This document shows, piece by piece, positions 13,947-33,035 of a DNA stretch of 64,000 nt. The number at the start of each line of letters is the position of its first letter. Within the stretch, counting starts at the first letter, position 1. The DNA is from Larkinella rosea. GTDB taxonomy: Bacteria; Bacteroidota; Bacteroidia; Cytophagales; Spirosomataceae. The notes under the pieces are model-generated. The model made no database searches, was not told the origin of the DNA, and saw only the letters and a list, made by a program, of their open reading frames with translations. A program made the translations under genes and the position numbers. The stretch is from contig NZ_RQJO01000007.1 in assembly GCF_003858635.1 (NCBI RefSeq), positions 1 to 64,000 on the forward strand, in the 5' to 3' direction.

Positions 13947-16900
13947 CTAACGGCTTAACAGATTTTGGTAATAGTTGGTTTTAGATTGGGCGCCAACCAG
14001 GGCAGTAGCAAAACCGTTTTTGTCAATCTGTATTTGCAACAACTCCTTTTTTTCGACGGCCCGTTGATTGGATTCAATTGCCTGACGAACACTGGCTAAG
14101 TCATCCCGTAAACCACTGACATCGAACACGGCACCGCCACTGTTGCCACTCAGTACATCCGCCGGTAAACCAATCTGCATACTGGCAATGGATTTCCAAT
14201 CGATCGGATTCATCAACTTAGGGTATTCGCTGGCCAGCTTTTCAAAGAATTTGGAACGGTTGACCAACTCCTCATTGCCGATTCCACCCAGTGCCTGATT
14301 CTGATCGACGGTCAATACCCGTTCTCCTCGGGTCAGCATGGCCGGTACCGTATCGATCCCATTGGCATGATTTCCTTCCCGATCGACGAATTCCGTACCA
14401 GTGACGAAGCCAATTCGTTTCAATTCCTCTTCCCGTGCTACGATATCATTGATGGTGGCGTTGATCCACTTTTTAATCACCTCTTCATCTGCCTTCAACG
14501 TTGCCAAATCATTTTTGAGCGATGTCGCATCCTGACCGGAGGACTCCGCAGCATTAACCTGGTTCTGTTTTTCCCTGATCTTCGACTGCTGTTCTTGCAG
14601 TTTTTGGTCAAATTGGGCTTTTTGTTGCTTCAACGATTCGATTTCAGCTGTCAATTGCTCCTGATGCTCCATCTTCTCAATAACCTCACTGCGACCACCG
14701 GTGCCATTGAGCGAATTAATTTGTTCCTCAATCTCGTTGATCGCATCATTGATTCGGTTCTTATTGATGAACCAGCGTTTACTGCGTAGCAGGGCTTGTT
14801 CAGCGCGCATTTCGGCAATCATGGTCTGTTTCTTGATGTCCAATATCTCAAATTCCAGTTCAATCCTCAGTTTGGCATAGGATCGGTTCTCCGCTTTAAT
14901 CTGCTCGGAGGTTTCCTTGTCCTTCGCCGCAATCTGGTCTTTGAGGGCATTGATCACCGCGGCCGTTTCTTCCTGATTCTTTTTGATCAGTTCCTGGGTC
15001 TCTTTATCCTTGGCTGCCATCTGATCTTTCAAAACCGAAACCGCATCGGCCGTCTCTTTTTCCAGCCCTTTGATTTTATCCGCTTCCTGCGCTTTGGCTT
15101 CCTGATTGGCCAGGCTGATTTCTTTGGTTTTATCCCCGATCGCCGTTTGATACTCCGCATGCTTGTCCGCAATCAGTTTTTCAAACGCATTCAGGATCTG
15201 AGTCCGTTCATCGGCGGAGGAAGCGCGTGCCAGTTCCCGCTGTTTGGCGGCTTCCAGGGCCGCTACTTCCCGGGCCTCGCCTTCGGCCAGCAGTTGAGAC
15301 CGGTAAATGGTATCTTCCTGCAAGCGAAGCTGCTTATCGGAATAAAACTGATTGGTTGCTTCTTTCTGGGCAGCCAGTTGCTTATTTAGCTCGTCGGTTT
15401 CGGCTTGTTTGGCCGCTTTGAAGTTATCGAGCTCGGTTTTTAACAAGTCAGCTTTGGCGTCACGGGCTTTCTCGGCTTCGGATATCTCCAGCTCTTTGGC
15501 CTGTTTGAAAGCCTCCATTTCCTGCTTGAGATACTCGATTTTCATATCCTTTAGCCGCTCAGCCTGTTCCAGTTTTTGCTGGACACCGGCAATCTCCATC
15601 TCGCTTTCCTTCTGAATCCGTTCCCGTTGCAACTGCTCCATGTCCTGAAGGAACTTCTTGATGTTGGTACCGGCATCGGCATTGATCTGAGCCACGCGCT
15701 GGGCATACCACAGTTGCAGGTCGAGCTTATCTTTCCCTTCGGCGATCCGCTTCTCTTCTTCGTAAAAGGCATGGATGATCTGCTCTTTCTGCGCATAGGT
15801 ACCCTGATAATTCGCCAATTCCAGATCTAACGCATTACGGTTCGCTTCCCGCATCGAATCATAGTAGTCCGTTGTCATATCCCGAATCCGTCCGTAGGCA
15901 TCGGCAATCGCCTGAAAGGTAGCAGCAATGGATTCGTTGATGGCGTTGACCACCGTTTGCAGGATCTGAACCGCCATGGCCACAATGGACATCGTGGTAT
16001 CAAACGAAAGCTTTTCGGTATCCTTTAATTCGGCTTTTGCGTTGGCAATCAGTTTTTTGGTTTCCCCGATTTTGACCTTCGTTTCCTCAATTTGCGCCTG
16101 GGTTCGACCCGCGCTTTGTTTATCCAGCTCCTCCAACTGAGTGAGGGTATTCTGATAGTCAGTGACCTGTTGCTGGGCTTTCTCCCGGCTTTTGCCGGTC
16201 AACAGGTCCAGGTTATTGATGACCGTTAGGATACCTTGTCCAAACTGGGCGACAATGGGATTGGTCTGCCCATAGAGGTCCATAATCTGCTTTATGGCAT
16301 TGTTGCGAAACTCTCGATCTTTTTCGATGTTCTGCTTCTCCAGTTCGTAGGTTTCCTGACGGATATGGCGAATTTTCTCTTCAGTAGAATTGATTAATTC
16401 GACGCCTTCACTCGCGGATTTAACCTGCTGTTGGGTGCGAGCGGTTTCGTATTTAGCCTCGGCTTCATTGCGTTGCTTAAGGGCTTTTTCGTAGACTTCC
16501 CCTTTCCCCTTTTCCGTGATGGTCACCTGATCCAGGTGTTTCTGAGCCGCATCCAGATTAATCTTCAATTGCACCAGAGCCTGCTCTTTGACCTCATCCG
16601 TAGCCTTTTTGCCATACTCTTTGATCAGGGCCAATCGCTCCTCCTGTGTTTTGGCACTACTGATGCGTTCCAGGATAGTCTCCGCTTCCAGCCGCTGAGC
16701 CGTTAGAACCTTAATAGCATCCTGATGCTTATTCTGAGCCTGGATGAGCTCCTGATTCTTAATCTCCTCATACTTCAGACGAAGTGCTTTGTGGTCAGGC
16801 TCGTATTTATCGATAATGGCCTTAATCTGTTTTTCCTTTTCTTCATAAGCAATCTTACTGCGATTGATCGTTTCGATTTCCGACTGCTCTTTCTTGTCCA

Positions 16901-19256
16901 GCAGCTGCATTTGTTGTTTCAACGATCGTTCGCCTGACTCCGCTTCCATCTTCTCGATGGCGATGTTGGTAGCACTGACGCTTTTTAGCTGAAGATCAGC
17001 TTTCAGGGCATCGATCTTCGGCTGGGTTTCCAGCACGACCTTCTCAATACGTTTGGCCTTTTCTTTCTCGGATATCTCCAGTTTGTTAATAGCATCAATC
17101 CGTATTTTCTGTTCGGCCTCCAGCAATTTCAATTGATCTTCCAGCGACCGCTCACCCGCCCTGGATTTGATCTTCATGATCTCAATGGCTTCATTACTGA
17201 CCTGTACTTTCTTCTTTTCCGTTGCCGAATTGGTAGCTGCGAACTCCTGTTCCCGGTGTTCACCGTTGGCTTTGGCTATAGCTGCCTTTTCGTCGGCATT
17301 AATCTTAATAATTTTCTCACTGTTGCCCTGAGCCTGTTGGCGTAACGCTTCGGCGGTCGCGTTGATCTGCCCGATTTCGGCAATCCGTTCCTTTTCTTTC
17401 TGGGCCTTGATTTTTTCAGCCGACTTGCCCAGTTCGTACTGAATTTTCTCCTGACCCGTGACAATCTCGTTAATGGTTTCCAGTGAAATCTGCCGATTGA
17501 GACCAAAAACCTGATCCATCAGACTACGGCTCTCATTGCGGAAGGCTTTTGACCCTTCGATCATGCCCCCTTGCCACATCTCCAGCAGGTTTTTCAGGCT
17601 CCCGCCGATCATGTTCTGCACATCCTGGGGCAGTTTGGCAATCAAAGCGGCTTCTTTCTCGAATAGCTCCCGTTGTTTGGTGGTCAGTGATTCGATTCGG
17701 TACGCATCCCGGGCCAGATTGATCCGCTCCTGATAGCTGATGTTGACCTGATCCAGAATCATCTTCAACTGACTGTTGCTCGTTTTTTCGGAATCCAGCC
17801 CCCGGAAGTACTCCGGATACTTGGCAATTAACAGGTCAAGGGCATCTTTTCGCAGCGAGGTGCCTTCGGCAGCCGACATCGCGCGTTGTGCCAGACCCAT
17901 CAATTCAGACTGTTCTTTTTTAACCTGGTATTCCATCTCACCCATCGTGGCCGTTACGTCCTGCGTAGCCGCATCCAGCGCCAGAATACCGGTAATCACG
18001 GTACCGATGATCGAGACAATCAAACCGAGCGGATTGGCGGAAAGGGCTGCCCATAATCCCCGGGTGGCTGTCGTAGCGGCCAATTGCGCTGCGGTCAGGG
18101 TATTCTGTTGGGTCGTGACCCGTTGGACAATCAGTAAATACGCGCCATAAACCACCTGTGCGGTTGCCTTTACCGCAGTCAAGGCAGTGGATGCAGTATT
18201 CTGGGCAATGGTGGCCAGTCGCCAGGTGGTAAAGGCGGAAATAATCGCAGTGATGGTCGTCGTCGTCCGCTTAATCGCACTATCGGAGCCCATCAGGGCC
18301 GTAATCAAGTCCCCGGTGGTCTTGATACCGGCCTTCAACTCATCTTCAAAGAAATCACCAATACGAGCCTTCGCTACGAAAAACGTGTCCGCTAAGTTGG
18401 AAACCTGACCGCCCAACGTCTTGCTCTGGAGCTGCATCATATTATAATAGCGTCCGCCGACTTCCGAGGTTTGCATAATGGCTTTCTGCACATCCGATGC
18501 CATGATTTGATGCGCCTGCGCCAGCTTGATGACCTCCTCCTTGGGTTTCTTCATCGAATCCGCCAACAAATCATACAGCGGAATACCAGCCTCGACGAAC
18601 TGCCGGGTTTCCGTTCCCATCAATTTACCCAGGTTCATCACCTGGCCATAGGCTAAGGTCAGCTGGGGCAGTTTATCCTTGCCAACCGCGGCTGCCATGT
18701 TGCCCAATGCCTCAACCGTCGGAATGAGGTCCTTCGTAGCAATATTGTAAGCCTTGAGTTTGACGACGTTTTCGGCTACCTCGTCGAGGGAGAAGGGCGT
18801 TTTCTTGGCCAGGGCCACAATGTCATTGAATAAGACCGTCGATTCCTTTTTCGAACCGAGCATGACATCGAGGGAAATTTTCAGCGAGTCGATCCTGGTT
18901 TTGGCATCGATAACGTCCATGCCAAAATTCTTAATCTCGTTGATCGTAAATGCAGTGCCCACCAACGTCGCGAAGTCCCGGACCTGCCTGTTGATTTTGT
19001 CAAACGTTTTATCAACGTTCTTCAGCTCGTCATCGCTCTGTTTGACCGCCGATCGCTGTTTGCCTAACGCATCGGTGACGCCACTGATGGCTTTGATCTG
19101 GGCTTCCGATTGGGCCCGCTGTTCGCCGGTTTGAATGGCGATTTGCTGCGCCAGCAGCCGGGTTAATTTGATCAGTTCATTATACTGATCGGCAACAACA
19201 GGCAATTCAGACGTGGCCTGAATCCGCAGCCTGATATTCTCTTCTCTGACGGACAT
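13947..19256 (-). CDS. Phage tail tape measure protein
   Basis: A 1769-residue protein. The N-terminal tape-measure domain is at about 95-330, with FFVAKARIGDFFEDELKAG near its end. A hydrophobic region with several membrane-like helices follows at about 330-430, as in TMPs that form a channel during DNA injection. From about 640 to 1580 it is nearly continuous coiled coil, and a C-terminal domain has the typical NGIDTVPAMLTRGERVL motif. TMP length sets tail length, and this size implies a long siphovirus-like tail. It is intact over 5.3 kb, which argues against long neutral decay. Unusually, the operon ends here: the tail tip, baseplate and fibre genes that normally follow are absent. Confidence 0.93.
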   Translation of the reverse strand: MSVREENIRLRIQATSELPVVADQYNELIKLTRLLAQQIAIQTGEQRAQSEAQIKAISGVTDALGKQRSAVKQSDDELKNVDKTFDKINRQVRDFATLVGTAFTINEIKNFGMDVIDAKTRIDSLKISLDVMLGSKKESTVLFNDIVALAKKTPFSLDEVAENVVKLKAYNIATKDLIPTVEALGNMAAAVGKDKLPQLTLAYGQVMNLGKLMGTETRQFVEAGIPLYDLLADSMKKPKEEVIKLAQAHQIMASDVQKAIMQTSEVGGRYYNMMQLQSKTLGGQVSNLADTFFVAKARIGDFFEDELKAGIKTTGDLITALMGSDSAIKRTTTTITAIISAFTTWRLATIAQNTASTALTAVKATAQVVYGAYLLIVQRVTTQQNTLTAAQLAATTATRGLWAALSANPLGLIVSIIGTVITGILALDAATQDVTATMGEMEYQVKKEQSELMGLAQRAMSAAEGTSLRKDALDLLIAKYPEYFRGLDSEKTSNSQLKMILDQVNISYQERINLARDAYRIESLTTKQRELFEKEAALIAKLPQDVQNMIGGSLKNLLEMWQGGMIEGSKAFRNESRSLMDQVFGLNRQISLETINEIVTGQEKIQYELGKSAEKIKAQKEKERIAEIGQINATAEALRQQAQGNSEKIIKINADEKAAIAKANGEHREQEFAATNSATEKKKVQVSNEAIEIMKIKSRAGERSLEDQLKLLEAEQKIRIDAINKLEISEKEKAKRIEKVVLETQPKIDALKADLQLKSVSATNIAIEKMEAESGERSLKQQMQLLDKKEQSEIETINRSKIAYEEKEKQIKAIIDKYEPDHKALRLKYEEIKNQELIQAQNKHQDAIKVLTAQRLEAETILERISSAKTQEERLALIKEYGKKATDEVKEQALVQLKINLDAAQKHLDQVTITEKGKGEVYEKALKQRNEAEAKYETARTQQQVKSASEGVELINSTEEKIRHIRQETYELEKQNIEKDREFRNNAIKQIMDLYGQTNPIVAQFGQGILTVINNLDLLTGKSREKAQQQVTDYQNTLTQLEELDKQSAGRTQAQIEETKVKIGETKKLIANAKAELKDTEKLSFDTTMSIVAMAVQILQTVVNAINESIAATFQAIADAYGRIRDMTTDYYDSMREANRNALDLELANYQGTYAQKEQIIHAFYEEEKRIAEGKDKLDLQLWYAQRVAQINADAGTNIKKFLQDMEQLQRERIQKESEMEIAGVQQKLEQAERLKDMKIEYLKQEMEAFKQAKELEISEAEKARDAKADLLKTELDNFKAAKQAETDELNKQLAAQKEATNQFYSDKQLRLQEDTIYRSQLLAEGEAREVAALEAAKQRELARASSADERTQILNAFEKLIADKHAEYQTAIGDKTKEISLANQEAKAQEADKIKGLEKETADAVSVLKDQMAAKDKETQELIKKNQEETAAVINALKDQIAAKDKETSEQIKAENRSYAKLRIELEFEILDIKKQTMIAEMRAEQALLRSKRWFINKNRINDAINEIEEQINSLNGTGGRSEVIEKMEHQEQLTAEIESLKQQKAQFDQKLQEQQSKIREKQNQVNAAESSGQDATSLKNDLATLKADEEVIKKWINATINDIVAREEELKRIGFVTGTEFVDREGNHANGIDTVPAMLTRGERVLTVDQNQALGGIGNEELVNRSKFFEKLASEYPKLMNPIDWKSIASMQIGLPADVLSGNSGGAVFDVSGLRDDLASVRQAIESNQRAVEKKELLQIQIDKNGFATALVGAQSKTNYYQNLLSR

Positions 19257-19362: not shown

Positions 19363-19698
19363 TTACTCTTCCCGGCTGGACTGTTGCCGGTTCTGTTTGG
19401 CCAGGGCCTGCTCTATTTCGGTGGCTTTTCGGCGCTCATCTCTGACCCATCCGGCGATGTAGCTGTGGTACTTCTCAACAGTACATCGATCAAACCAGTC
19501 CAGGCGAGCAGGGTCTCCACCCGCAATTCGATAATGCGTATCGTAGCGGGCGTCAGACCAAATTGCGGTGACTTGAGCAGGGTGATCTTCCAGTCCAATA
19601 GCTCCTGTAGGTTCAGCTTGTTGATAAAGCTCAGGGTATCTTCGCTGGCAAGCCGCTGAGAGGGTACGAAATGACTGAGTGGCCTGCTCAAAAAAAAA
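19363..19698 (-). other. Possible -1 frameshift extension of the tail-chaperone-like gene
   Basis: On the minus strand the upstream chaperone-like gene contains nine consecutive T (A9 at 19690-19698 on the plus strand) in phase TTT TTT TTG. From this tract the -1 frame stays open for over 100 codons, passes the zero-frame stop at 19413 and ends at 19363-19365. It includes DWFDRCTVEKYHSYIAGW and a charged end ERRKATEIEQALAKQNRQQ. Many tailed phages make a second chaperone form by -1 slippage just upstream of the tape-measure gene. The zero frame aligns with its paralogue, so both frames could be used. Open shadow frames are common in this sequence, so this is suggestive only. Confidence 0.4.
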
Positions 19699-20168
19699 GC
19701 ATAAAGCATCGGATGCTGCATCCAGGCGGCAATCTTCTGCCGATTCAACTCCGAATCGACGACGGCCGGGTCTTCCTGCTCAGAGAAAAACCAGATGGCT
19801 GCCAGCTCATACACCTGGGCGATATCCATGCCGAATTCCCGGCGTTGCTGCATGCGTTCAATCGTGGTCAGGGCAAACCGAATGGTATCTTCCGCTTCCT
19901 CGGGCTCCTCACTCAGCCGGGCCATGGCAGTCCGGATTTGATCCTTCATCGCAACGATTGCGGTGGTCAGCATCTCATCGGACAGCTTCAGACTATCGTG
20001 TTTCCGCAGCAGATCGCCCAGACTGTGGAAGCGGCCCATCGCCATATCAATGCCGCTGTTATTGGCCTGGTAATAGGTGACGCCATCGATGACGAAGGGT
20101 TTACCGTCCGGCCAAACGACGGGCTGGATTTGCCCGTTTTCCAGTGCTTCTTTAAAGGCTTTGATCAT
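19413..20168 (-). CDS. Tail-assembly-chaperone-like phage protein, copy 2
   Basis: A 251-residue protein paralogous to the gene just upstream (20198-20917) along its whole length: both have F-IDG/DN-YY near 25, HDSLKL/VNDEMLTT, a helical pair ending ERMQQRREF or ERLQQRREF, SEEEDP or SEQEDP with VVD and IVD, and a common C-terminal third. No enzyme motif. Two unknown genes immediately upstream of a tape measure occupy the place of tail assembly chaperones, so I infer that role. It carries a T9 tract that could allow -1 slippage. Confidence 0.6.
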   Translation of the reverse strand: MIKAFKEALENGQIQPVVWPDGKPFVIDGVTYYQANNSGIDMAMGRFHSLGDLLRKHDSLKLSDEMLTTAIVAMKDQIRTAMARLSEEPEEAEDTIRFALTTIERMQQRREFGMDIAQVYELAAIWFFSEQEDPAVVDSELNRQKIAAWMQHPMLYAFFLSRPLSHFVPSQRLASEDTLSFINKLNLQELLDWKITLLKSPQFGLTPATIRIIELRVETLLAWTGLIDVLLRSTTATSPDGSEMSAEKPPK

Positions 20169-20197
20169 TTTTGTTGATTACACAAGTGGACTATTCA

Positions 20198-20917
20198 TTA
20201 CGAATGGGATGGATACCGACCCGACTTCATGTCATCGATTAGTTGCTGGTAATGCTTTAGATTGGACATGCGGTCACCAATCAGGGCCCTGGTTTCGTCG
20301 GATAACTCAAAGGGCACCGCCTTTTTCTGAATGATGCTTAAATCGATCAGCTCATCATCATTCATCGATTGCAGCTTTCCCAGATTCTGCGGATCCGTTA
20401 ATTCGTTAAGAGGCACAAACCGATCGATCTGGAGTCTTAAAAACTGGGGATACAGCTCGGTATGTTGAATCCAGTGATTGATCTTGCGCCGGTTGATTAC
20501 CGGATCGACGATTCGGGGGTCCTCTTCTTCGGATAGGTAAAACACACTGACGATATCGAAGACTTCCGCCACGTCGAGGGCAAATTCCCGGCGTTGCTGC
20601 AACCGTTCCAGGGTATTGAGCGCACTGGCCAGGTTGTCCATTACCTGAACCGGATCCCGATTGATCTGCGCCATCGCCGTGCGCAGCTGATCCCGCATAA
20701 TGGCTAATGAGGTCGTCAGCATTTCATCATTCACTTTCAGCGAATCATGCAGGCGCAGCGTATCGGTAAACGCATGAAACCGGTTTTTGAACAGGTTCAT
20801 GCCGGCCTCAGTGACTTCGTAATACTGGATATTATCGATAAAAAACGACTGGCCACCCGGCAGCGTAGCGGATTTAATCAGCCCTTCTTCCAGGGCATTT
20901 CGAAAATAGTGATCCAT
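20198..20917 (-). CDS. Tail-assembly-chaperone-like phage protein, copy 1
   Basis: A 239-residue paralogue of the following gene, with the same arrangement of an N-terminal β-hairpin (SFFIDNIQYYEVTEAG), a long helical middle (MRDQLRTAMAQINRDP, LERLQQRREFALDVAEV) and an acidic linker FYLSEEEDPRIVDPV. No slippery tract was seen here. It follows the small terminase by 41 bases with no remnant of large terminase, portal or capsid genes. The duplication suggests the two proteins form a heteromer or act on different steps of tail assembly. Confidence 0.6.
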   Translation of the reverse strand: MDHYFRNALEEGLIKSATLPGGQSFFIDNIQYYEVTEAGMNLFKNRFHAFTDTLRLHDSLKVNDEMLTTSLAIMRDQLRTAMAQINRDPVQVMDNLASALNTLERLQQRREFALDVAEVFDIVSVFYLSEEEDPRIVDPVINRRKINHWIQHTELYPQFLRLQIDRFVPLNELTDPQNLGKLQSMNDDELIDLSIIQKKAVPFELSDETRALIGDRMSNLKHYQQLIDDMKSGRYPSHS

Positions 20918-20958
20918 GATGGGTTGAATAAAAAGTGAAAAATGAGTTGAGGACAGGT

Positions 20959-21486
20959 TTATCTCATCGAATATTCTGCTTTCTCTTCCCGTATGTCAAT
21001 GATAATAGCACCGGTTAGCTCATCCCGACGAATAAACCGGGTTCCGTTCCCGGTCAAATCGACGGCGGGTCTATCCCGCCATAGCTGAGGCTGCCGGTTC
21101 GTCAGCCAGAACTTCAGGGCTGTTACATCGGGTGGATAGGATTTGATGGTCTCCCGTTTTACGATTTCCTGTTGATAATCACCGATCGATACCACAAAAA
21201 ACCGGGTTTCCGGATGCTCGTAACCGATTGCTCTTTGAAATAGAGCCCGGGCAACTTTCGCGTCAGCCACCATTTTACCCTGTTTAACCGCATCTGAAAA
21301 GCCCGTATAGCGACGTCTCCAGTAATAAATCGTGGAAACCCCTACGTCAAAAAAATGGGCCAACTCCTTGTCGGTAGCCCCTAGCAGGCAGTAATGGTAG
21401 GCTAGTTGCGCATACGTTTCCTGATACTTCGACGGCCGACCGCCCTGGTTATTTCGAGCATAGGTATTTCCCCCGGGAGCGGGCAT
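20959..21486 (-). CDS. Phage terminase small subunit-like protein
   Basis: A 175-residue protein. An N-terminal helix-turn-helix region reads GRPSKYQETYAQLAYHYC then GATDKELAHFFDVGVSTIYYW, the standard beginning of this TerS family. The middle (VARALFQRAIGYEHPE) and the end (VTALKFWLTNRQPQLWRD) also match. TerS recognises the pac or cos site and recruits the large terminase. No TerL follows. TerS without TerL is a feature of phage-inducible satellites, which use their TerS to redirect a helper's packaging. Confidence 0.85.
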   Translation of the reverse strand: MPAPGGNTYARNNQGGRPSKYQETYAQLAYHYCLLGATDKELAHFFDVGVSTIYYWRRRYTGFSDAVKQGKMVADAKVARALFQRAIGYEHPETRFFVVSIGDYQQEIVKRETIKSYPPDVTALKFWLTNRQPQLWRDRPAVDLTGNGTRFIRRDELTGAIIIDIREEKAEYSMR

Positions 21487-21493
21487 AGTCTGG

Positions 21494-21739
21494 TTAGATT
21501 TTGATGTGATAAAAAGCTTTTGCCTGCCGGAGCCGCTCCTGTCCTTCCAGAATCAGAGCGGCATTCTCCTTGCGAAGTCGGCGCCGTTCGGGGGGATCCT
21601 GCTCGTGGATAAAGGGCATCACTTGCAGGTGGTTGATGATCCGTTCATACTCGGAAAGCAACAGATACAGTTGAGGGTCATCAATCACATAGCGTTTTCG
21701 AGTGCCACCAACCGATAAACCCGTCGTGGGCGGATTCAA
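21494..21739 (-). CDS. Small phage protein before TerS
   Basis: An 81-residue basic helical protein located 7 bases upstream of the terminase gene, clearly in the same transcript. The first 20 residues are flexible; the rest forms two helices (YLLLSEYERIINHLQ and LRKENAALILEGQERLRQA). No family recognised. It is the first gene after the 0.78-kb non-coding region. Confidence 0.55.
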   Translation of the reverse strand: MNPPTTGLSVGGTRKRYVIDDPQLYLLLSEYERIINHLQVMPFIHEQDPPERRRLRKENAALILEGQERLRQAKAFYHIKI

Positions 21740-21853
21740 TGCTGCGGCGGCTGATCATGAAAGGAGTCGTTATCAACTGGCCGCAGCCGGAAAGAGCTTG
21801 AAATAGATTTCATACAGTCGTTTTTACGGTGGTTCGTATTTGTTCGCATTCAA

Positions 21854-21957
21854 TGTTGACAAATACATGTACAAGTACGCAAAAATGTCTCCAAACTGGA
21901 AATAATTGTCAACAAATGGGCAGGTTATTTCGCATTTGGTCGCCATGGCTGTTGACA
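21854..21957. repeat. Three TGTTGAC boxes, two forming an inverted pair
   Basis: TGTTGACAA at 21854-21862 and its reverse complement TTGTCAACA at 21906-21914 face each other; a third copy, CTGTTGACAG, lies at 21949-21958. The first and third are each followed by a GTAC-rich stretch (ACATGTACAAGTAC and GTACGTACAC). They sit in the non-coding region between TerS and the upstream gene and may be binding sites for an element-coded regulator. The plus-strand open frame through here does not look like a protein. Confidence 0.4.
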
Positions 21958-22225
21958 GGTACGTACACAGATTCCCGTGCGCGTTTTTATGAACGGACAA
22001 AACGTAACATGCTCATTAATTCGGTCTGTTTATTTCAGGCTTTACTACGCGCGCGCGTATGGACTGGGAAAACTCTTCATTTGGCTGCAAATGCCCTTTT
22101 TAGCAACGCGTTTCGGTCAGTCAAGTTGGCTGTTTGTCCGATAAAGCCCATCGCTCTGTAGCTGCGGATTGAATCGGGCAGATGGTGGCAATATGGCTCA
22201 ACCTTTGAAGCCGACGAAAAGCAGC

Positions 22226-22523
22226 GTGATGTCAAGTTTTGTCAAGTTTTTGAATACTGCTTCCTTCAGCTAAATCAGTTCTGATGTTACGTTTTGTTAC
22301 GTTTCTGGTATCGGGAAAATGAAGGTGATGTTAGGTTTTGTTAGGTTTTTGTAGAGCGCACATTCATCTGACCTTAACAAATCTTAACAGCTTTGCAGGT
22401 GGAGAACCAATCTGACCTGAGGTTTTCTGAGGTTTTTGCTCCTGTCTCTTTTTTCGTAAACCCGGAGAGTTCCTTTTTAGGGGCTCCGAAAACGCCATGT
22501 GATGTAAACAAATGTCAACTTTT
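22226..22523. repeat. Phased array of six paired 10-bp repeats with variable core
   Basis: Six 25-bp units start at 22226, 22281, 22325, 22368, 22412 and 22499. Each begins with [G/C]TGA[T/C], followed at once by two tandem 10-mers. The 10-mer is identical or nearly so within a unit but different between units: GTCAAGTTTT, GTTACGTTTT, GTTAGGTTTT, CTTAAC plus AAAT or AGCT, CTGAGGTTTT, and GTAAACAAAT with GTCAACTTTT. Unit spacing is 43-44 bp for the middle ones, 55 for the first and 87 (about twice 44) for the last. The 10-bp and 44-bp periods place all copies on one face of the helix. Position inside a packed operon suggests a replication origin, partition or operator region. Confidence 0.7.
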
Positions 22524-23077
22524 TACTCATTTTTGATCAGAATCCGATCGTTTTTACCCCACCGATGTACCGGAATGGTCGTGTTATTGATCACATAAAG
22601 GGCATCATAGGCCGCTTGACCGATTGATTTAACACCGTTGATTGGCGTATAGATTGCCTTATCCGGAATACGTACCAGGATGAAATCATCATTCCAACTG
22701 AAGCCAACGAAGGGTTGCCAACGAACCGGGTTATCCTGTTGATGTTGATAACCGATGAGTTGATCGATGGCCATCCGCTCGACCGAAGGAAGTTGACGTA
22801 GCCTTACTCGCTGATAGAAATTACGGAACATATCTTTTGGATAATACAACTGGACAGTCCCTTCTTTGTGGCAAAGCTTCCAATCGCCGGGGCGTTTGGC
22901 AAAGTGCAGGCCTTCCACCATACCGGCAGCATAGCCCGTGCTCAGGAGCAAATAGGTTGGGTCAGCCTTCAGTTCGATGGCCAGTTTTCGAGCTTCGGCG
23001 TGAGCTGCCTGAATTTGATGTTGGATCGCCCACAGTTTCTCAAATACTGGGGTTCCCTTTTTGATGATGTATCGCAT
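22523..23077 (-). CDS. Hypothetical phage protein
   Basis: A 184-residue basic cytoplasmic protein from the early operon. It starts RYIIKKGTPVFEKLW, has an amphipathic helix QIQAAHAEARKLAIEL and a β-rich C-terminus with YTPINGVKSIGQAAYDALY. No recognised domain. Its stop codon overlaps the last unit of the repeat array, so the array starts exactly where the early gene block ends. It may act on that DNA, but this is only inferred from position. Confidence 0.55.
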   Translation of the reverse strand: MRYIIKKGTPVFEKLWAIQHQIQAAHAEARKLAIELKADPTYLLLSTGYAAGMVEGLHFAKRPGDWKLCHKEGTVQLYYPKDMFRNFYQRVRLRQLPSVERMAIDQLIGYQHQQDNPVRWQPFVGFSWNDDFILVRIPDKAIYTPINGVKSIGQAAYDALYVINNTTIPVHRWGKNDRILIKNE

Positions 23078-23140
23078 AACAGCTTCCTTTCATTTGATCT
23101 TTGACAGTATTGTACGGGTTCATTCAATTACCGATGGACT

Positions 23141-23371
23141 TTATACGTCACGCACCGGATCGGCTTCGGCTTCGGATTCGTACCACTGAAGTCGTTCCAG
23201 TGAAGCCAGGGCAAGCTTCGGATTGGCTTCATCGATCGCTTTCCGGGCCCGTTGCATATCGTGTTTGAGAAACAAGGCGGCTTTCTTTCCCTGTGCCCGG
23301 GTGACCTGGGGGATCAGGCCCGAAACCCGCACGATCTCATTTTCCAGTAATTCAATCATTTCGCTCATCAA
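23141..23371 (-). CDS. Small phage protein
   Basis: A 76-residue helical protein (EMIELLENEIVRVSGLI, KKAALFLKHDMQRARKAI) with an acidic end (ESEAEADPVRDV). It begins 8 bases after the antirepressor gene stop, so the two are cotranscribed. Not recognised. Confidence 0.5.
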   Translation of the reverse strand: MMSEMIELLENEIVRVSGLIPQVTRAQGKKAALFLKHDMQRARKAIDEANPKLALASLERLQWYESEAEADPVRDV

Positions 23372-23379
23372 AGTCAGGA

Positions 23380-24342
23380 TTAAAAAGGCTGGTCGTCGTC
23401 ATCATCGGTTTCTACCTCTCCGGGGGCTAAAGGGCCACCACCGGGCGGATTGGGAGTTGGTTTAAAATGGTGAGTAACCACCGATAACACCTTATCCAGA
23501 AACCCATGTCGTTCGGCTACATCCAGGTACGTTTCCGAATTAGTCCGCTTGTAAGCCTTGACATTGATGTTATAGATGTACAGCAGTTTGTGATAGATCT
23601 GGGGGTACACCTGATCCTGCTGCAACCGGTTGATATGGCAGTAATCATTGACCAGCTCGCGGATCCGGCTGCGGACTGTCTGCTGTGGTGGTGGATTAAC
23701 CGATTTGTTCATGCCCATGAACTGCACCGCACTTTGCTGCTGAATGGAGACCATTTGACTCATTTGAGCCTGTAATGCGTTGATTTGTTGTTCGTGTTCG
23801 ACCAGGAGTTTAGCCGCCTGCAAAATCACTTGCGCAGGTGTTAAATCAGAATCAGGCAGCTCGGCAATCGGTCGCTTACGGCTAATTTCGTTGGAAGAGG
23901 TCGTCTCCGTTGGCGGGAAAAGTTCCAGGCTACGGCCGTGGGCATCTTTCAAGCCTTCCAGATTCACCGGTACCTCATTCAACTGGTCGCCAAAGTCGGT
24001 GGTCATGCCTTCTTTTTGCAACCTTTCGGCTACCGCAGCCAACTGTTGGCGATAAATACCTTCCGGATCCCGTTCGTATGCGGCCAAATGTTGAGCGGTT
24101 TCCACCGTCAGCACATAGTCAACCCGGCCTCTGAAAAGCTTTTTGAGTGAGAAGTGCCGGTCATGGACCAGATCAAATTTGTCGACCCGGTGATTGAACC
24201 AGTCGGGAAAATAGCGGTCGTTTTTGTTTTGAAAGGAGGCATACAGCCGACGGGCAGAAATAACGGCTTTTTGACCATGAAACAGCACGTAGTCGGGCCA
24301 CGAAATCGGTGGGTTCGTTTGATTCGATTCAGAAGTGGTCAT
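23380..24342 (-). CDS. Phage antirepressor (AntA-like N-terminus, ORF6C-like C-terminus)
   Basis: A 320-residue protein. Residues about 28-110 match the AntA/AntB pattern: VISARRLYASF, then DWFNHRVDKF, then DYVLTVETAQHLA. A Gln-rich coiled coil (about 185-205) follows. The C-terminal part, about 225-295 (RIRELVNDYC...VYPQIYHKLLYIYNINVK...FLDKVLSV), resembles ORF6C, a DNA-binding tail of phage antirepressors. Such proteins relieve repression by binding the CI-type repressor or DNA during induction. In the same operon as the Cro-like and DnaB genes. Confidence 0.7.
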   Translation of the reverse strand: MTTSESNQTNPPISWPDYVLFHGQKAVISARRLYASFQNKNDRYFPDWFNHRVDKFDLVHDRHFSLKKLFRGRVDYVLTVETAQHLAAYERDPEGIYRQQLAAVAERLQKEGMTTDFGDQLNEVPVNLEGLKDAHGRSLELFPPTETTSSNEISRKRPIAELPDSDLTPAQVILQAAKLLVEHEQQINALQAQMSQMVSIQQQSAVQFMGMNKSVNPPPQQTVRSRIRELVNDYCHINRLQQDQVYPQIYHKLLYIYNINVKAYKRTNSETYLDVAERHGFLDKVLSVVTHHFKPTPNPPGGGPLAPGEVETDDDDDQPF

Positions 24343-24368
24343 GATGAATGATCGTTTAAGGGGTGGAG

Positions 24369-25790
24369 TTAAAAACCGACTGATCCTTCGGGAAGGGGCG
24401 CATAAACCAACGTGCCGTCGGGCTGATTGGTGGGATAAAGCCGCAGTTGTTCCCGGTTGTCAACCAGTGAGTTCGTAGCGGCATCGACATAAACATAGGC
24501 TGTACCCACCCGGCCGTTGCGGTTCTTGCACACAATCATCTCCAGCGATTGATCCAGTTTAACCTCGACGCCCAGCTCTTCGGCTTTTTGCAGTTCATAG
24601 TAGTCAGGCCGGTAGAGAAGTATGACAACGGAGGCATCCTGTTCCAATTGGCCCGTCGAGCGAAGGCCCGATATCTGGGGCCGCTTGTCCTCCTTCTTTT
24701 CGTTTTCCCGGTTGAGCTGCGAGAGTTCGATGATGGGGATTTTGATCCGGCGCTGGAGTTTCTTCAGCTTTTTGCTGACCTGACTGGCCACTTCGTATTC
24801 GCCTTTTTGGGTGCGGTCTTCCACCAGTTGCACGTAGTCGATGATGGCCAGCTCAATTTGATGGCGACGGTGCCAATCGATTAACAGGTTGCGGATGTCC
24901 TCAATATCCCGCGGCTCATCATCGTAGAAGTAGATGGGCAGCTTCTCCATTTCACCCGCAAACTGATGGATCTGCTGAAACTGTTGTCGGGTGATCTTGC
25001 CCTGGAGAATGTCCTCGTAGGGAATAAACAAGGCATCGGCAAACGCCCGAATGATCAACTCATCGGCATCGACCTCCAGACTAAAATAGGCGACGGGCTT
25101 ACCCGACCGGGCGGCAGCCATCGCGGTAAATACCCCCACAATGGTTTTGCCCATGCCCGGCCTTCCGGCAATCAGAATGATGCCATTTTGCCAGCCGCCA
25201 AAATGGCTATTCAGTTTTCGAAGTCCGGTATCTACCCCGGAAATGCCATTGGGTTTATTCATGGCATTTTCAATTCGCTTCAGGGATTTGCCAATAAAGT
25301 GGCTGATGGTTTTTTCCTTGCCGATGGTCAGGCCGGTTGAAATCACATCGGCCAGCCGATTGACCTGGGTTGATAGCGCATCGGCTAATTCGCCACCCGC
25401 GTAGGCAGCAGTCTGAATCTGCTGTGTCCCCAGAATAGCCTGGCGACGAATCCACAAATCCCGCAGATACAAACAATCCCGTCCACTTTCGATGATTTGA
25501 CCCTCTATGTCCAGCCCGTCCAGTTGGAGGTTGTATGCCGCCAGTTTTTTAAAATTACCGGATTGCTTGAGCGATTTGAGCACGGTTCCTATACGGACTT
25601 GCTGCCCATTCTCAAAAAGGGCGTGAATGGTTTGGGCCATGAGTTTATAGCCCTCATGGGTAAAAACGTCGCCCTGGAGCAGAACAGGCCAGTAGTCGTT
25701 GAGCAGCCTGGGAGACGCAAACAGGGATGCAACCACCGCCCGTTCGATCGACACATCATGGGGCAATACATCAAAGGATTTTGCTTTCAT
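24369..25790 (-). CDS. dnaB: Replicative DNA helicase, DnaB family
   Basis: A 473-residue helicase of normal length. The N-terminal primase-interaction domain (about 10-120) begins PHDVSIERAVVASLF. The RecA-like motor has Walker A IAGRPGMGKT (207-216), FSLEVDADELI, Walker B LAIIDYVQLV and the arginine-finger region SQLNRENEKKEDKRPQISGLR. It unwinds DNA at the replication fork of the element. The start codon overlaps the upstream stop (ATGA), so translation is coupled. This is the phage copy, not the chromosomal dnaB. Confidence 0.93.
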   Translation of the reverse strand: MKAKSFDVLPHDVSIERAVVASLFASPRLLNDYWPVLLQGDVFTHEGYKLMAQTIHALFENGQQVRIGTVLKSLKQSGNFKKLAAYNLQLDGLDIEGQIIESGRDCLYLRDLWIRRQAILGTQQIQTAAYAGGELADALSTQVNRLADVISTGLTIGKEKTISHFIGKSLKRIENAMNKPNGISGVDTGLRKLNSHFGGWQNGIILIAGRPGMGKTIVGVFTAMAAARSGKPVAYFSLEVDADELIIRAFADALFIPYEDILQGKITRQQFQQIHQFAGEMEKLPIYFYDDEPRDIEDIRNLLIDWHRRHQIELAIIDYVQLVEDRTQKGEYEVASQVSKKLKKLQRRIKIPIIELSQLNRENEKKEDKRPQISGLRSTGQLEQDASVVILLYRPDYYELQKAEELGVEVKLDQSLEMIVCKNRNGRVGTAYVYVDAATNSLVDNREQLRLYPTNQPDGTLVYAPLPEGSVGF

Positions 25791-26071
25791 GACTGGGGAT
25801 GGTTAAGCGGATAGGTTGGAAAAACGATACCGGATAGTTCGAATGTGAGCTTTTCCTCTTCCAACTCGTCGGCGTTGATTGCTTCACGGAAAATCGTTCT
25901 CAGATGCGTTGACGTCCGAAGAGTCTTTTTAGATTTGATCAACTCGGCCAGGTAATCCCAGACTTCGCGGCCTTTCAGATCGGGTGGGATGGGGATATTG
26001 TGGGAATAAGCGCCATTGGGAAGCTTTTTCGAGTGCTCCGGTATCCGGGCGTTCTTTGCAGCGGTATTCAT
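25787..26071 (-). CDS. Small phage protein between replication genes
   Basis: A 94-residue protein overlapping its neighbours by 4 bases at both ends (ATGA), so tightly coupled to DnaB and the DUF4373 protein. It has an extended Pro-rich first third (PNGAYSHNIPIPPDLKG) and a helical rest (VWDYLAELIKSKKTLRTST). By position it could be a helicase loader, but it lacks AAA+ motifs and the role is not shown. Confidence 0.55.
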   Translation of the reverse strand: MNTAAKNARIPEHSKKLPNGAYSHNIPIPPDLKGREVWDYLAELIKSKKTLRTSTHLRTIFREAINADELEEEKLTFELSGIVFPTYPLNHPQS

Positions 26072-26961
26072 GTAATTTCCAGTTTAGAGCGTTTGATTTG
26101 TGTGCCATTGGACGGTGATACGGCACTTTTGATCTGGGTGATGATCTGGTTGAACTTCTCATTGAAGTTGGCCATGTCCCGAAACTGGTAGAAGGGCGGC
26201 AGTCTGGTCGACTCGGTGAGCAATCGTTTCAAGGCATCGATGCATTCGCCATCGGTCGGATCACGGTTGAATCGTTTTTTAACGGCAGCGCGAAGTTTTA
26301 CCCCTAGCTTTTTAGCGTGGGCGCCATCTTTGGCATCCCAGTAGTAATCCGGAAACTTCTCTTCGATGACCAGTTTGATTTGATGAGTCAGCGTATACGT
26401 TTTTTCGCCTGATTCTTCATCGTCATTTTTGCCTTCTGCATTTTTTGAAGTTGATTTTGAAGGCAAAGCCGCAACTGCGGCAGAAGAATTATTACTTTCC
26501 TTTTCCTTTTTAGATATATCGTTAGATATATCTTTTCCTTTTCCTTTTGTGTACTTTTCCGGGGGTTTTCCGCCGGAAAACTCAGAATCGCCTTCTGCTT
26601 TGCGTATACGGTCTTTTTTGCGTCTGTTAGCTACCTCTGTAAGCCTGCTTTTAATACCATTTGAGGTCAATACCTGCCGTTGCTCGAAGGTGCTTTTATC
26701 GAATAATCCGATTTCCAGCATGGTTCCAATCATTGTCCGTAGGTTTTCCTCGGGTATTCCATACTTTTTTCCGAGGGTTTTCCAGCGGAAAACTAACGAC
26801 ATGTCCAATTCGCCATCCTGAGTCTGGTAGATTTCCTGTAGCAGCTTGATGTAAAGAGCAAATCCAATCAAATCGTGGACTGCTTCCAGCATCTCTACTT
26901 TATCATCCATTTGGCAGTCGAGCGGGAAGTACTCCAGGCCGATTTTAGCGGGACGCGCCAT
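26068..26961 (-). CDS. DUF4373 (Lin1244/Lin1753-like) phage replication protein
   Basis: A 297-residue protein. The N-terminal domain (about 5-125) shows the family signs: GLEYFPLDCQMDDKVEMLEA, LIGFALYIKLLQEIY, and LTEVANRRKK. A low-complexity Ser/Lys/Glu linker (about 130-195) leads to a helical C-terminal domain with DYYWDAKDGAHAKKL and FNRDPTDGECIDALKRLL, common in replisome organisers. Family members sit beside helicase genes in phages of Bacillota and Bacteroidota and are thought to recognise the origin. Upstream of DnaB in the same transcript. Confidence 0.8.
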   Translation of the reverse strand: MARPAKIGLEYFPLDCQMDDKVEMLEAVHDLIGFALYIKLLQEIYQTQDGELDMSLVFRWKTLGKKYGIPEENLRTMIGTMLEIGLFDKSTFEQRQVLTSNGIKSRLTEVANRRKKDRIRKAEGDSEFSGGKPPEKYTKGKGKDISNDISKKEKESNNSSAAVAALPSKSTSKNAEGKNDDEESGEKTYTLTHQIKLVIEEKFPDYYWDAKDGAHAKKLGVKLRAAVKKRFNRDPTDGECIDALKRLLTESTRLPPFYQFRDMANFNEKFNQIITQIKSAVSPSNGTQIKRSKLEIT

Positions 26962-27039
26962 ACGTTACGTTTTTTGATCGAGGTTGTAAAATCCAACGGG
27001 TAGGAGCTCCGTCGTCCGAAGTAGATAATCCACTGGCCG

Positions 27040-27621
27040 TTAAAATGACAGGGTGTAATGCCGATCAATGGAGCCGTAGGGGCGGTCCTTCTGCGGTACC
27101 CGATAGGGGCGCTCACAATCCGCATAGTAGGAGTAAAAACAGGTCGGTGAAAGCCGGATGTTGTCAATCAGATTCAGGCCAAACAGCTCCCGCAGGGTTT
27201 CGTACTGATTGACTACTTCATCGATCTGCTCTTCGGCAAAGGGCTGTTCGTTGGTCGACCAGGTGGATGTACACAGAATCACATCCGTAACGCCCAGCAC
27301 CTTCGCTCGTTTGATCACCGAACCCAGTGCGATGATATGGTTGTACCCCCTTTGCTGCATCAACCGCTGCACTTCCACTACCTTGAAGTTCTTTAAATAG
27401 GCGACGTATACATAGTAGCGGCTGGTGGGTGGATAGCATTTACCAGCGGCCATAAAAATCAGGGAAGCCTCAAAAGAGGACCGGCAATGACCTCCAGTAA
27501 TCGATAGCGGGTTGATTACTGAATTGGCTGGCCGTTGCAAATCGGATTTGGAATTGGACGTTTTGAGGGAGGCATCGAATGGCATCGAAGCGGGCATGCG
27601 AAAGGAAATGGCAGTATTCAT
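27040..27621 (-). CDS. Hypothetical phage protein
   Basis: Start placed at Met 27621 because the sequence upstream overlaps the next gene and looks non-coding; length 193. The N-terminal 50 residues are Ser/Asn-rich and likely flexible. The C-terminal α/β part contains YYVYVAYLKNFKVVEVQRLM, VIKRAKVLGVTDVILCTS and YETLRELFGLNLIDNIRLSP. The latter recalls the order of RadC/JAB proteins in phages, but the metal-binding HxH and Ser/Asp are not present, so this is weak. Function unknown. Confidence 0.5.
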   Translation of the reverse strand: MNTAISFRMPASMPFDASLKTSNSKSDLQRPANSVINPLSITGGHCRSSFEASLIFMAAGKCYPPTSRYYVYVAYLKNFKVVEVQRLMQQRGYNHIIALGSVIKRAKVLGVTDVILCTSTWSTNEQPFAEEQIDEVVNQYETLRELFGLNLIDNIRLSPTCFYSYYADCERPYRVPQKDRPYGSIDRHYTLSF

Positions 27622-27682
27622 GTTTTGCTTAGTTTGAAAGGTAAAGTTTTTGTTGCGTAGTCTGGATGATGAAATCCCCGGT

Positions 27683-28039
27683 TTACACGATGAGGCCGTC
27701 GACAATATGGGTCACCTGCCAGATTCGACGAATGGCATGCAGGGGCACGTTCCACTTGTAATGGTTTCTATTGTCAGGGTGGAGATGAAGCAGTGCTGTT
27801 TCAAGCAGTTGGTTCTCCTTCAGCCGCATGATGATCGGCGAAAATCCTTCATTTGTTTCTACGCAAATCACAGTGTTGTTGATGGTCGGCCACTGCGCCG
27901 GTGGTACCTCATGGGCTCTTACTTTCCATCCCGGCTTAAGAGTCGGAAGCATGTTTTTGGCACGAACCGTAAAAAAAGCAGCTTCGGTGTCGGGCATTTG
28001 CAGTGGATGATTTGTTGGAATTTGAAATAGAGTTGTCAT
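27683..28039 (-). CDS. S24/LexA-like fold protein lacking the catalytic Ser
   Basis: A 118-residue protein with the layout of a peptidase S24 domain: NMLPTLKPGWKVRAHEV, WPTINNTVICVETNEG, IIMRLKENQLLE, and LHPDNRNHY followed by IRRIWQV. Where S24 has the nucleophile (GDSMEPTLKPG) this has AKNMLPTL, so Ser is replaced by Asn. There is no helix-turn-helix domain. It could bind the CI-like S24 repressor and alter its dimerisation, which would fit its place between cro-like and antirepressor genes, but this is inference. Confidence 0.6.
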   Translation of the reverse strand: MTTLFQIPTNHPLQMPDTEAAFFTVRAKNMLPTLKPGWKVRAHEVPPAQWPTINNTVICVETNEGFSPIIMRLKENQLLETALLHLHPDNRNHYKWNVPLHAIRRIWQVTHIVDGLIV

Positions 28040-28080
28040 GAAAAGAAGGGTATAAGGTTGTAAAAAGTCATTTTCAGAAG

Positions 28081-28431
28081 CTAAGAAGCTGGATGACTTC
28101 TGGGTGTTTTGGCGCGAAATTCACGTGCAGGTGGAGCCTCCATAGAGTTTTTTACCTTCAGGCTGTGCCGCTCTGCAAACCGGATGATATCCGATTTTTT
28201 AAAGCGTTTGACCTTTCGGCCGTAGGCGACAATGTTCTCCTCCATAAGCATGAGCCGGGCCGTCTTTTTGTCGACATCGAAGTACCAGCAGACCCATTCC
28301 CAGGTGACCAGTTTATCTTCCTTCAAAGCCAGTAATTCACGCTCCGATTCGATCAGCCGTTTGGCGGTGTCTTTAAAATCCTGAAGCCATTGCTCCACGG
28401 CTTCGGCGGGTATAACTGCAATGCTGTTCAT
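28081..28431 (-). CDS. Putative phage DNA-binding protein
   Basis: A 116-residue protein. An N-terminal coiled coil (QWLQDFKDTAKRLIESEREL) precedes LVTWEWVCWYFDVDKKTARLMLM and RKVKRFKKSDIIRFA, the layout of a winged helix-turn-helix with a C-terminal basic strand, as in excisionases and small regulators. The tail is basic and unstructured. It starts 3 bases after the stop of the Cro-like gene, so it is the second gene of the early operon. Confidence 0.6.
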   Translation of the reverse strand: MNSIAVIPAEAVEQWLQDFKDTAKRLIESERELLALKEDKLVTWEWVCWYFDVDKKTARLMLMEENIVAYGRKVKRFKKSDIIRFAERHSLKVKNSMEAPPAREFRAKTPRSHPAS

Positions 28432-28434
28432 AGC

Positions 28435-28698
28435 TTACACAGTTAAAGAATGCTGAGACTTGACTGGACGTTTAATCTTGCGCTTGATCAGTTTTGTAAG
28501 CATTGATTCTTCCTCTTCCAGTTTAGCCAGCCCATCCAGAAAGGCGTCAATTTTCTTTTTATCGCAGTCTTTCCCCTTTAGAACATTGTGGGCGAAGGGC
28601 TCGGATACCCCACCCAGTTCGGCGGCTTTCTTGATACCGCCATCGGTTGCGTCCAGCCTTTGACGAATTACAACCAGTTCATCTTTGCTTAATTCCAT
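28435..28698 (-). CDS. Cro-like helix-turn-helix protein
   Basis: An 87-residue protein and the first gene of the minus-strand operon, divergent from the CI-like repressor. The region IKKAAELGGVSEPFAHNVLKGKDCD has the shape of a helix-turn-helix (A-x-x-x-G-V-S), preceded by a basic helix. Position and size fit a Cro-type repressor acting on the shared promoter region 28699-28835. Confidence 0.6.
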   Translation of the reverse strand: MELSKDELVVIRQRLDATDGGIKKAAELGGVSEPFAHNVLKGKDCDKKKIDAFLDGLAKLEEEESMLTKLIKRKIKRPVKSQHSLTV

Positions 28699-28740
28699 GC
28701 TTTTCGTATGTTTATCGTTAAGTCGGCGTTGTGTCGCCGT

Positions 28741-28835
28741 TTACTAAATATTGTTGGTCAAAGTTAGCCTAAATTGTCTAATATTGTCAAGTTTTTATTG
28801 ATATATCTTTGCAATTTTTGTTTAACATTTTATAA
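28741..28835. promoter_or_regulatory. Divergent lysogeny-switch promoters and operators
   Basis: Rightward: TATCTTTG (28804-28811) matches the Bacteroidota -7 element TAnnTTTG, with TTG at 28784-28786 upstream, giving transcription of the repressor. Leftward: TAACTTTG on the minus strand (28759-28766), with TTGAC on the minus strand near 28784-28788. The two -33 regions therefore overlap in TTGTCAAGTTTTT (28784-28796). ATTGTCTA and ATTGTCAA stand as direct repeats 10 bp apart at 28773 and 28783, a likely operator. The 13-mer TTGTCAAGTTTTT recurs at 22239-22251 in the paired-repeat array. Promoter calls are by eye. Confidence 0.55.
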
Positions 28836-29567: not shown

Positions 29568-29806
29568 ATTTAAACCTAAGCATGTCTGCTTATTTTACCG
29601 AATACGAAGTAAGTAAAATCTCTTTTAACTACGATCCAAACTTTTTGTATGTTTATTGTAGAGTCAAAGTTAAGTAGAAACTGTGATTCTGATTTAGTGA
29701 TTAAGACTTGATGTGTTCAATTTAGATAAAGTCAAGTTTAATTTGAATATTGAAAAGTGAATTTCTTAATTATAATGTTTCTTAGATTATATAAGAGTAA
29801 AAAAAT

Positions 29807-30904: not shown

Positions 30905-30951
30905 CGGAGACTTTAGAAGATTAATCAGGAACCTTAGATCAAACCGCAACA

Positions 30952-32658: not shown

Positions 32659-32816
32659 TAAAAAAATATTTTTTTATGATATTTGCCTACATTAAGTACC
32701 TATAATAATTAAGGTAATATTAATAAGTTCTTTATAATCTATAATTTTTTTGAATTTTTTTTTGATTATAACGTATATGGCTTATTCCTAGATTAAAATT
32801 TAACTTTGATTTAATT

Positions 32817-33035
32817 ATGATTGTTGACAAATATTGGCTTGCTCTCAACTGTCCCAAATGTAACTATACAAATGGGGTACAAATTATCAGTGTTATGCTG
32901 GAGGAGACGACCATATGTCATAATTGTAAGGTAAAGATCAAATTGCAGGATACAATTGCATCTGTCTACACGGAAATTCGTAGTGCCGAACATACTTGGA
33001 ACGATTTATTAGACACTATCAAGAATTTTAAATAA
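32817..33035 (+). CDS. Small zinc-ribbon protein
   Basis: A 72-residue protein with two CxxC knuckles: CPKC at residues 13-16 and CHNC at 34-37, separated by about 18 residues, a classic zinc ribbon. The C-terminal half is a helical tail (EIRSAEHTWNDLLDTIKNF). It stops 3 bases before the next gene, a PD-(D/E)XK nuclease, so both are made together. It likely binds nucleic acid or bridges the nuclease to its target. AT-rich like its neighbours. Confidence 0.65.
   Translation: MIVDKYWLALNCPKCNYTNGVQIISVMLEETTICHNCKVKIKLQDTIASVYTEIRSAEHTWNDLLDTIKNFK

Follow-up and report, generated by a model that had tools for sequence, protein, structure and literature searches.

A phased array of paired 10-bp repeats in a Larkinella rosea prophage may be a packaging-recognition signal resembling a repeat inside terS genes

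The array and its prophage surroundings

Six paired 10-bp repeats lie in non-coding DNA of a probably defective prophage of Larkinella rosea, within the 64,000-nucleotide stretch analysed here (the window). The neighbouring genes are read leftward, from a Cro-like gene recognised by eye through the replication functions and AntA to a gene for a 184-aa protein, whose stop codon is overlapped by unit 6 of the array (Table 1). TerS follows the array after a gap of about 740 bp that holds no convincing gene except a possible 81-aa ORF. The same gap contains two 41-nt direct repeats that are 71% alike (21833-21969), with TGTTGACANNTACNTRYACA plus an inverted TTGTCAACA between them.

Table 1. Array units and other features of the prophage, in window positions
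Feature	Position	Strand	Description
Unit 1	22226..22251	+	GTGAT, then GTCAAGTTTT twice; 24 nt exactly shared with L177, a viral PF03592 terS gene
Unit 2	22281..22306	+	CTGAT, then GTTACG pair; no exact match of at least 15 nt among the loci compared
Unit 3	22325..22350	+	GTGAT, then GTTAGGTTTT twice; 25 nt exactly shared with the non-coding array L161, 24 nt with terS of phage R3.3
Unit 4	22368..22393	ambiguous	CTTAAC pair (plus) or GTTAAG pair (minus); 19-nt exact match, in L161 only among the loci compared
Unit 5	22412..22437	+	CTGAC, then CTGAGGTTTT twice; 20 nt exactly common to several terS loci; BLASTN matches in terS of Javan570 and TP712
Unit 6	22499..22524	+	GTGAT, then GTAAAC/GTCAAC pair with one mismatch between the words; no exact match of at least 15 nt among the loci compared
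Degenerate inverted half-unit	21997..22010	-	Complementary to 14 nt of unit 2
Unit-like site	28776..28795	+	GTCTAATATT/GTCAAGTTTT (joined); overlaps the -33 parts of putative divergent cI/early promoters; may be the site of a shared regulator
Cro-like gene (by eye)	28435-28698	leftward
Replication initiator	26068-26961	leftward	Lin1244_N domain
DnaB	24369-25790	leftward
AntA	23380-24342	leftward
184-aa gene	22523..23077	-	pI 9.6; 3' end at array unit 6
TerS gene	20959..21486	-	PHROG 309 type, like CUS-3 and Acinetobacter phage TerS
Tape measure protein	13947-19256	leftward

The window TerS gave no PF03592 match, and none of the three terminase profiles searched (PF03592, PF03237 and PF04466) matched anywhere in the genome. 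TerS is followed directly by tail-side genes (20198-21486). In the G139 prophage, whose tape measure protein is 80% identical to that of the window over 758 residues, terS (PF03592) and the tail-side genes are 5.6 kb apart and a PF04466 large terminase lies within that stretch; in G110 and G111 the terS distance is likewise close to 6 kb. We regard the element as a mosaic that is probably defective, or else satellite-like. The 184-aa protein matched no Pfam or PHROG family, and its predicted fold (mean pLDDT 86) matched no PDB entry at E 0.001 or better and one uncharacterised viral protein. Single-protein scans of viral contigs with the 184-aa gene, cI and a 251-aa gene recovered the window's own record only, and the cI protein scan of genome contigs gave no match.

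Several further features of this region and its relatives deserve mention. Two adjacent genes that are 41% identical to each other (19413-20917) stand just before the tape measure gene, with related genes present in 18 of the 221 other family genomes, and in the G139 prophage a gene for a LytTR DNA-binding domain (L063 5642-6340) directly follows the large terminase. Inside the replication-initiator gene, TTAGATATATCG occurs about twice together with pyrimidine hexamers (26496-26548), a possible origin. Beside cI lies an A+T-rich island (29000-34000, G+C 26-35%) with genes for a Cap4-type nuclease and an AAA/SMC-like protein, which may form a defence module. At 1613-3209 the gene after that of a DNA/RNA non-specific endonuclease encodes a T6SS Tdi1-type immunity domain.

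A recount confirmed the six units at the starts reported by the first-pass annotation, with spacings of 55, 44, 43, 44 and 87 bp, and bore out its description of a constant frame around a word that is free between units yet equal within the pair. The two words of a pair agree at 35 of 36 positions, the best value among all 720 re-pairings (mean 23), which indicates that equality within pairs exceeds what a shared consensus would give. All six units consist of exactly two copies, with similar leaders and near-constant spacing, and the spacers between them look unrelated by eye. The pair is perfect in four units (at 22230, 22285, 22329 and 22417), and no other perfect non-simple 10-bp tandem pair exists in the 64 kb; Tandem Repeats Finder detected four of the six pairs. 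No such pair arose in any of 20 dinucleotide shuffles of the whole window, and of 2000 local shuffles of 22201-22530, 1999 had no perfect 10-bp pair and one had a single pair. In 141 other, partly overlapping loci (972,062 bases) we counted eight perfect 10-bp pairs, no two within 200 bp, and no period-10 cluster. The whole Larkinella rosea genome (8.17 Mb, 18 contigs) yielded four exact matches to the unit pattern, all in the array, two one-mismatch matches elsewhere and no second array. For unit-like sites in 21740-22215, the best score was reached by 77 of 1000 shuffles.

Unit 4 can be read in either direction. Its half-site score is higher on the minus strand (14.8, GTTAAG ATTT GTTAAG) than on the plus strand (13.2), and the whole-unit matrix, which was trained with unit 4 as plus, gives 24.5 for plus and 8.6 for minus. 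The array stretch has a G+C content of 0.396 vs 0.493 for the prophage. Predicted curvature of the best array stretch is matched or exceeded by 0.13% of window positions at 31 bp, 1.1% at 63 bp, 0.44% at 125 bp and 11% at 250 bp, percentages that are uncorrected for taking the best of many; intrinsic bending would be expected of an SPP1-type pac.

The paired repeat in terS genes and other elements

When viral contigs were searched with the degenerate pattern TGAYSTNANGTTTTSTNANGTTT, 49 stretches were obtained, one of which was the window's own record. Of the 48 others, 38 lie inside terS genes on the coding strand, as judged by reading the translations rather than by HMM. Their proteins are of the GYSxKTA...ENLTKPDIKxYI kind, with the site at the ENLxK[PL]xI codons, and 12 of the 12 proteins aligned match PF03592. 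The words are identical in 24 of the 48 stretches, the search pattern itself fixing part of them. When the array was compared by BLASTN with 50,697 phage records, 23 were returned at E up to 10. An annotated terS lies beneath the match in six of these, representing four distinct phages reached through units 3 and 5, and the unannotated gene under the match in phage R3.3 proved to be a PF03592 terS. Of the remaining 17 records, four show a weaker match that falls on TerL; the others, some of them bearing no relation to TerS, match other or unannotated genes. The E-values were weak, 0.03 to 4, so the link to terS rests on where the matches fall. Random 30-mers of the prophage compared with the same loci gave matches of 14 nt or less in 118 of 120 cases, the other two being 17 and 27 nt.

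The array and the terS pair share the 10-bp period, the word STNANS, an A/T linker and equal words. Units 1, 3 and 5 share 20-24 nt of exact sequence with terS genes, and units 2 and 6 resemble the terS pair in geometry only. Word identity is 6/6 in the terS genes of phages phig1e, TP712 and R3.3, 5/6 in Javan570, 4/6 in A118, 3/6 in A500 and 2/6 in Ray17; TP712, R3.3 and Javan570 had themselves been found through the array search. The motif is absent from terS of Streptococcus phage P0093. Ray17, which from its ENLQKP motif we take to be an SPP1-like phage, has no pair in its terS, so the terS pair should not simply be identified with the known SPP1 repeats. A second non-coding array was found in L161, L183 and L189, which carry one identical copy of about three units directly upstream of a gene start, on a contig that also carries a tape measure gene. 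Comparison of the L161 array with phages gave 161 records; among those listed, P335 was examined and lacks the pair.

The first-pass annotation had named the lack of the array in related elements as a result that would speak against it. Such a lack was indeed observed, since upstream of TerS the array is absent from 29 family and nine viral loci, which have scattered imperfect pairs only (1.5 kb scanned per locus, except 1431 bp and 610 bp in two; 36 family TerS matches, 30 with a locus, one of them the window's own); yet an element of the same type was later found elsewhere, in terS genes and in L161. The eight other loci of the 184-aa gene likewise have scattered imperfect pairs and no array, and the 3 kb around the array had no match to phage sequences at E 1e-5.

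Wider pattern searches gave a similar picture. Across 222 family genomes the unit pattern formed a cluster (five matches) only in G000; the other matches were 31 single ones in 30 genomes, none equal-worded, and a reversed control pattern gave 16. A narrower pattern in 395 class genomes found four other single matches, none with equal words. The double-unit pattern matched genome contigs eight times, seven being simple or longer repeats, palindromes or unclear by eye, and in viral contigs it matched the window's record and five others resembling simple or longer repeats; an earlier version of the pattern had two other matches, neither equal-worded. Two plasmid records from Latilactobacillus share 22 nt of unit 3. 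An imperfect pair in satellite Javan98 (E 4) was given no weight. The same applies to the look-alike pairs of L112 (Porphyromonadaceae), a single duplicated locus, in which TGATGTAAAC/TGATGTGAAC pairs of the same geometry stand upstream of duplicated genes (1908-1956 and 4608-4688), with A replaced by G in both halves from one unit to another.

Constraint on the terS repeat at the DNA level

One half of the terS pair reads (N)-L-T and the other K-P-D, and the halves, being 10 bp apart, are in different reading frames. The terS genes were collected by profile or peptide, and thus codon choice was not selected directly. From 110 loci (L205-L314), 82 terS genes fitted the sequence rule of the script and 28 loci were dropped, leaving 62 distinct sites. 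Thirteen of the 62 came from a PF03592 search of family genomes (30 loci of 42 matches) and the remainder from the top 80 among at least 586 viral relatives of A2. As the starting terS of this A2-centred viral set had first been found by a DNA pattern, the 62 sites are a non-random sample.

Word identity was 6/6 in 20 of these 62 sites, where resampling of synonymous codons gave a mean of 0.45 (maximum 4 in 1000 resamplings), and summed word identity was 300 vs 173 +/- 8.3. Because the viral set was centred on a pattern-found terS, the family genes found by HMM were tested alone; four of 17 reached 6/6 vs 0.09, with a sum of 70 vs 39.5 +/- 4.2. The viral set alone (53 distinct) had 15 sites at 6/6 vs 0.36 and a sum of 241 vs 142.1 +/- 7.6. 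This split into 17 and 53 used another rule, and no locus in it matches the pattern TGAYSTNANGTTTTSTNANGTTT. After clustering at <70% identity, 39 clusters gave a sum of 187 vs 107.7 +/- 6.1, with fully identical words in 12 of 39. In these clusters the z-score was 13 at period 10 and at most 3.0 at the other periods tested, and no other position from about -25 to +29 codons exceeded z 4.

The two copies also covary. In 46 of 62 sites the Leu codon ends in the base with which the codon after Pro begins. Wherever the codon after Lys has T as its second base (coding for Leu, in one case Val), T also starts the Leu codon (10 of 10); 13 further T-first Leu codons pair with C as the second base of the codon after Lys. 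Synonymous choice in the 39 clusters leaves a footprint, with AAC for N in 38 of 39 (expected 18.3), A at T/R in 30 (expected 14.0), AAA for K in 36 (expected 22.5) and T at P/L in 32 (expected 13.9). Chi-square values are 19 to 40 at N, T/R, K and P/L and below 10 at the other codons from -8 to +12. On our reading of the codon table, each strongly constrained base is a base that the protein fixes in the other copy, suggesting that equality of the copies is kept as much as a consensus.

General mutational homogenisation is an unlikely cause, because in 744 other ORFs observed identity equals the expectation in windows with equal coding-given similarity (4.52 vs 4.47 and 4.99 vs 4.96 expected). 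In terS (60 sites) it was 7.42 vs 4.69 expected, and 9/10 was reached in 14 of 60 sites but in only three of 12,748 comparable windows of other ORFs. Slippage by 10 bp within terS is disfavoured since gain or loss would shift the frame. Elsewhere in the same terS loci, only four pair-like sites occur in 265,701 bases. The codon data show that the terS element is held at the DNA level to a degree that the protein does not call for, and their simplest reading is selection on the DNA repeat.

Candidate functions of the array

The best explanation for the likeness appears to be that the array is a non-coding, multi-copy version of the element inside PF03592-type terS genes, and we see about an even chance that it is a pac-like, TerS-binding array. 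If so, two neighbouring HTH subunits of a TerS ring would read the two equal copies, one helical turn apart, and units spaced near multiples of 11 bp would let one or several TerS rings assemble, the array serving as a packaging-recognition region upstream of the late genes. Identical subunits arranged in a ring, with one contact to the DNA at each turn, would favour a common word in adjacent copies. Variation of the words between units could mean that TerS responds chiefly to shape and spacing, or that the preferred word varies from one TerS protein to another. The earlier suggestion that the binding protein requires two equal half-sites gains independent support from the terS comparison, which points to selection on equal halves. 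A free word repeated twice would be a possible reason why no fixed TerS consensus stands out, and the equal-word terS repeat together with the six-copy array offers a concrete candidate packaging site.

Published accounts describe related arrangements. In SPP1, pac overlaps promoters, a ribosome site and the DNA-binding-domain region of gene 1, and TerS binds to pacL and pacR (PMC6316719). The DNA-binding domains of SF6 TerS bind weakly and with little sequence preference, and the HTH ring has been proposed to choose bent DNA (PMC4737164). In P22 pac is a 22-bp sequence within the TerS gene, TerS binding is generally weak in vitro, and DNA recognition by TerS was termed elusive and controversial in a 2022 review (PMC9611059). 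Weak preference of the SF6 type and weak binding in vitro do not by themselves explain equal words. In the literature searched, largely outside subscription journals, no listed title or abstract opening describes an equal-word 10-bp repeat in terS or such an array.

The array resembles an SPP1-type pac in having direct repeats upstream of or within terS, and the PF03592 terS repeat in having a 10-bp equal-word pair in the same sequence frame. It differs from an SPP1-type pac in its six copies of differing words, its non-coding location, which does not overlap the DNA-binding-domain part of terS, and the lack of a PF03592 TerS in the same element, the window TerS being of PHROG 309. We therefore do not class it as an SPP1-type pac, because its own TerS belongs to another family and the site lies outside terS; both points weigh against the pac reading as a whole.

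A more elaborate version of the packaging hypothesis, which we think unlikely, is that a satellite-like element offers paired sites as a "packaging address book", so that terminases of different helper phages would package it. It was suggested by the three units that carry words and 20-24 nt seen in terS of other phages, and by the adjacency of TerS and tail-side genes in a genome with no PF03237 or PF04466 large terminase. The same reading includes a general rule, by which the recognition site of many PF03592 terS genes would be written over their own DNA-binding-domain codons as an equal-word 10-bp repeat, and changes in the protein (K-P to K-L, and at the position following Pro) would accompany the DNA repeat.

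Regulatory roles were weighed against packaging. A late-activator array resembling those of Ltr/Alt (PMC13123087), with the 184-aa protein as candidate activator, is possible though doubtful. Like the repeats of Ltr, Alt and RinA, the array is made of direct repeats and separates the last early gene from the late genes, the basic 184-aa protein (pI 9.6) is encoded directly upstream of it, and the L161 array likewise precedes a gene start; however, no homologous regulator was found and no promoter recognised, with neither TTG-N17-23-TAnnTTTG nor bare TAnnTTTG, the promoter types scanned, in 21480-23100. The 184-aa protein has no Pfam, PHROG or significant PDB fold match, its eight relatives lack the array, and the presence of this kind of element within the coding part of terS would be left unexplained. 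We consider quite unlikely a repressor or stoperator array, in which a CI-like or Cro-like protein would bind the units and a similar site at the early promoter. Examples of oriented stoperators are known (PMC9283540), and the mycobacteriophage ones resemble the array in forming several intergenic sites of largely one orientation, which five or six of the six units share here; moreover, the site at 28776 in the cI intergenic region is the best half-site-pair match outside the array in 64 kb. This site is suggestive at most, since it was picked after the scan, shuffled versions of the intergenic region attain its score in 12 of 2000 cases, and two other places score higher with the whole-unit matrix. 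A single asymmetric 13-bp consensus unites stoperators, whereas the six units have different words, and the cI relatives in G138 and G134 have palindromic-looking operators by eye and no array. Head-to-tail binding to two direct half-sites about one helical turn apart is known from the lambda CII site and the PhoP box (PMC9986795, PMC3335776), each of which uses one word with limited variation, in contrast to the word that changes with every unit of the array.

It is very unlikely that local duplication without function produced the array, with slippage making the words and the likeness to terS arising by chance or from remnants of terS fragments. Each pair does look like an exact or near-exact tandem duplication, and a degenerate remnant lies nearby (21997-22010), but slippage accounts poorly for exactly two copies in all six units with a similar leader and near-constant spacing. 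Nor does it fit that two different units reach terS independently, when 118 of 120 random prophage 30-mers match the same loci over no more than 14 nt, or that 744 ORFs show no homogenisation at 10-bp spacing. The proposal that the units are kept alike by local duplication thus becomes less likely, from the frame argument and the ORF comparison inside genes and for the array by analogy. Type III toxin-antitoxin repeats, CTnDOT arm sites and OmpR-type boxes were considered and dropped; positions 21000-29000 match no Rfam family up to E 1, as a structured RNA array such as a type III antitoxin might.

A signal recognised in packaging may explain the array better than an ordinary origin does. A replication origin or partition site of the element, both entertained in the first-pass annotation, is highly improbable: several repeats do lie in a non-coding stretch of low G+C, but they have no common word, the initiator gene lies 3.5 kb away and holds its own short repeats, and no par genes (ParA/ParB-like) were seen among the ORFs scanned, a part of those in the window. 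Iteron origins share with the array several short repeats in a gene gap and differ in having one shared word beside replication genes, neither of which the array has. Such iteron-like repeats were seen in L068 (13224-13349), where the 9-bp TTAAGGTGA recurs in both orientations in the gap between helicase-like and primase-like ORFs, likely an origin.
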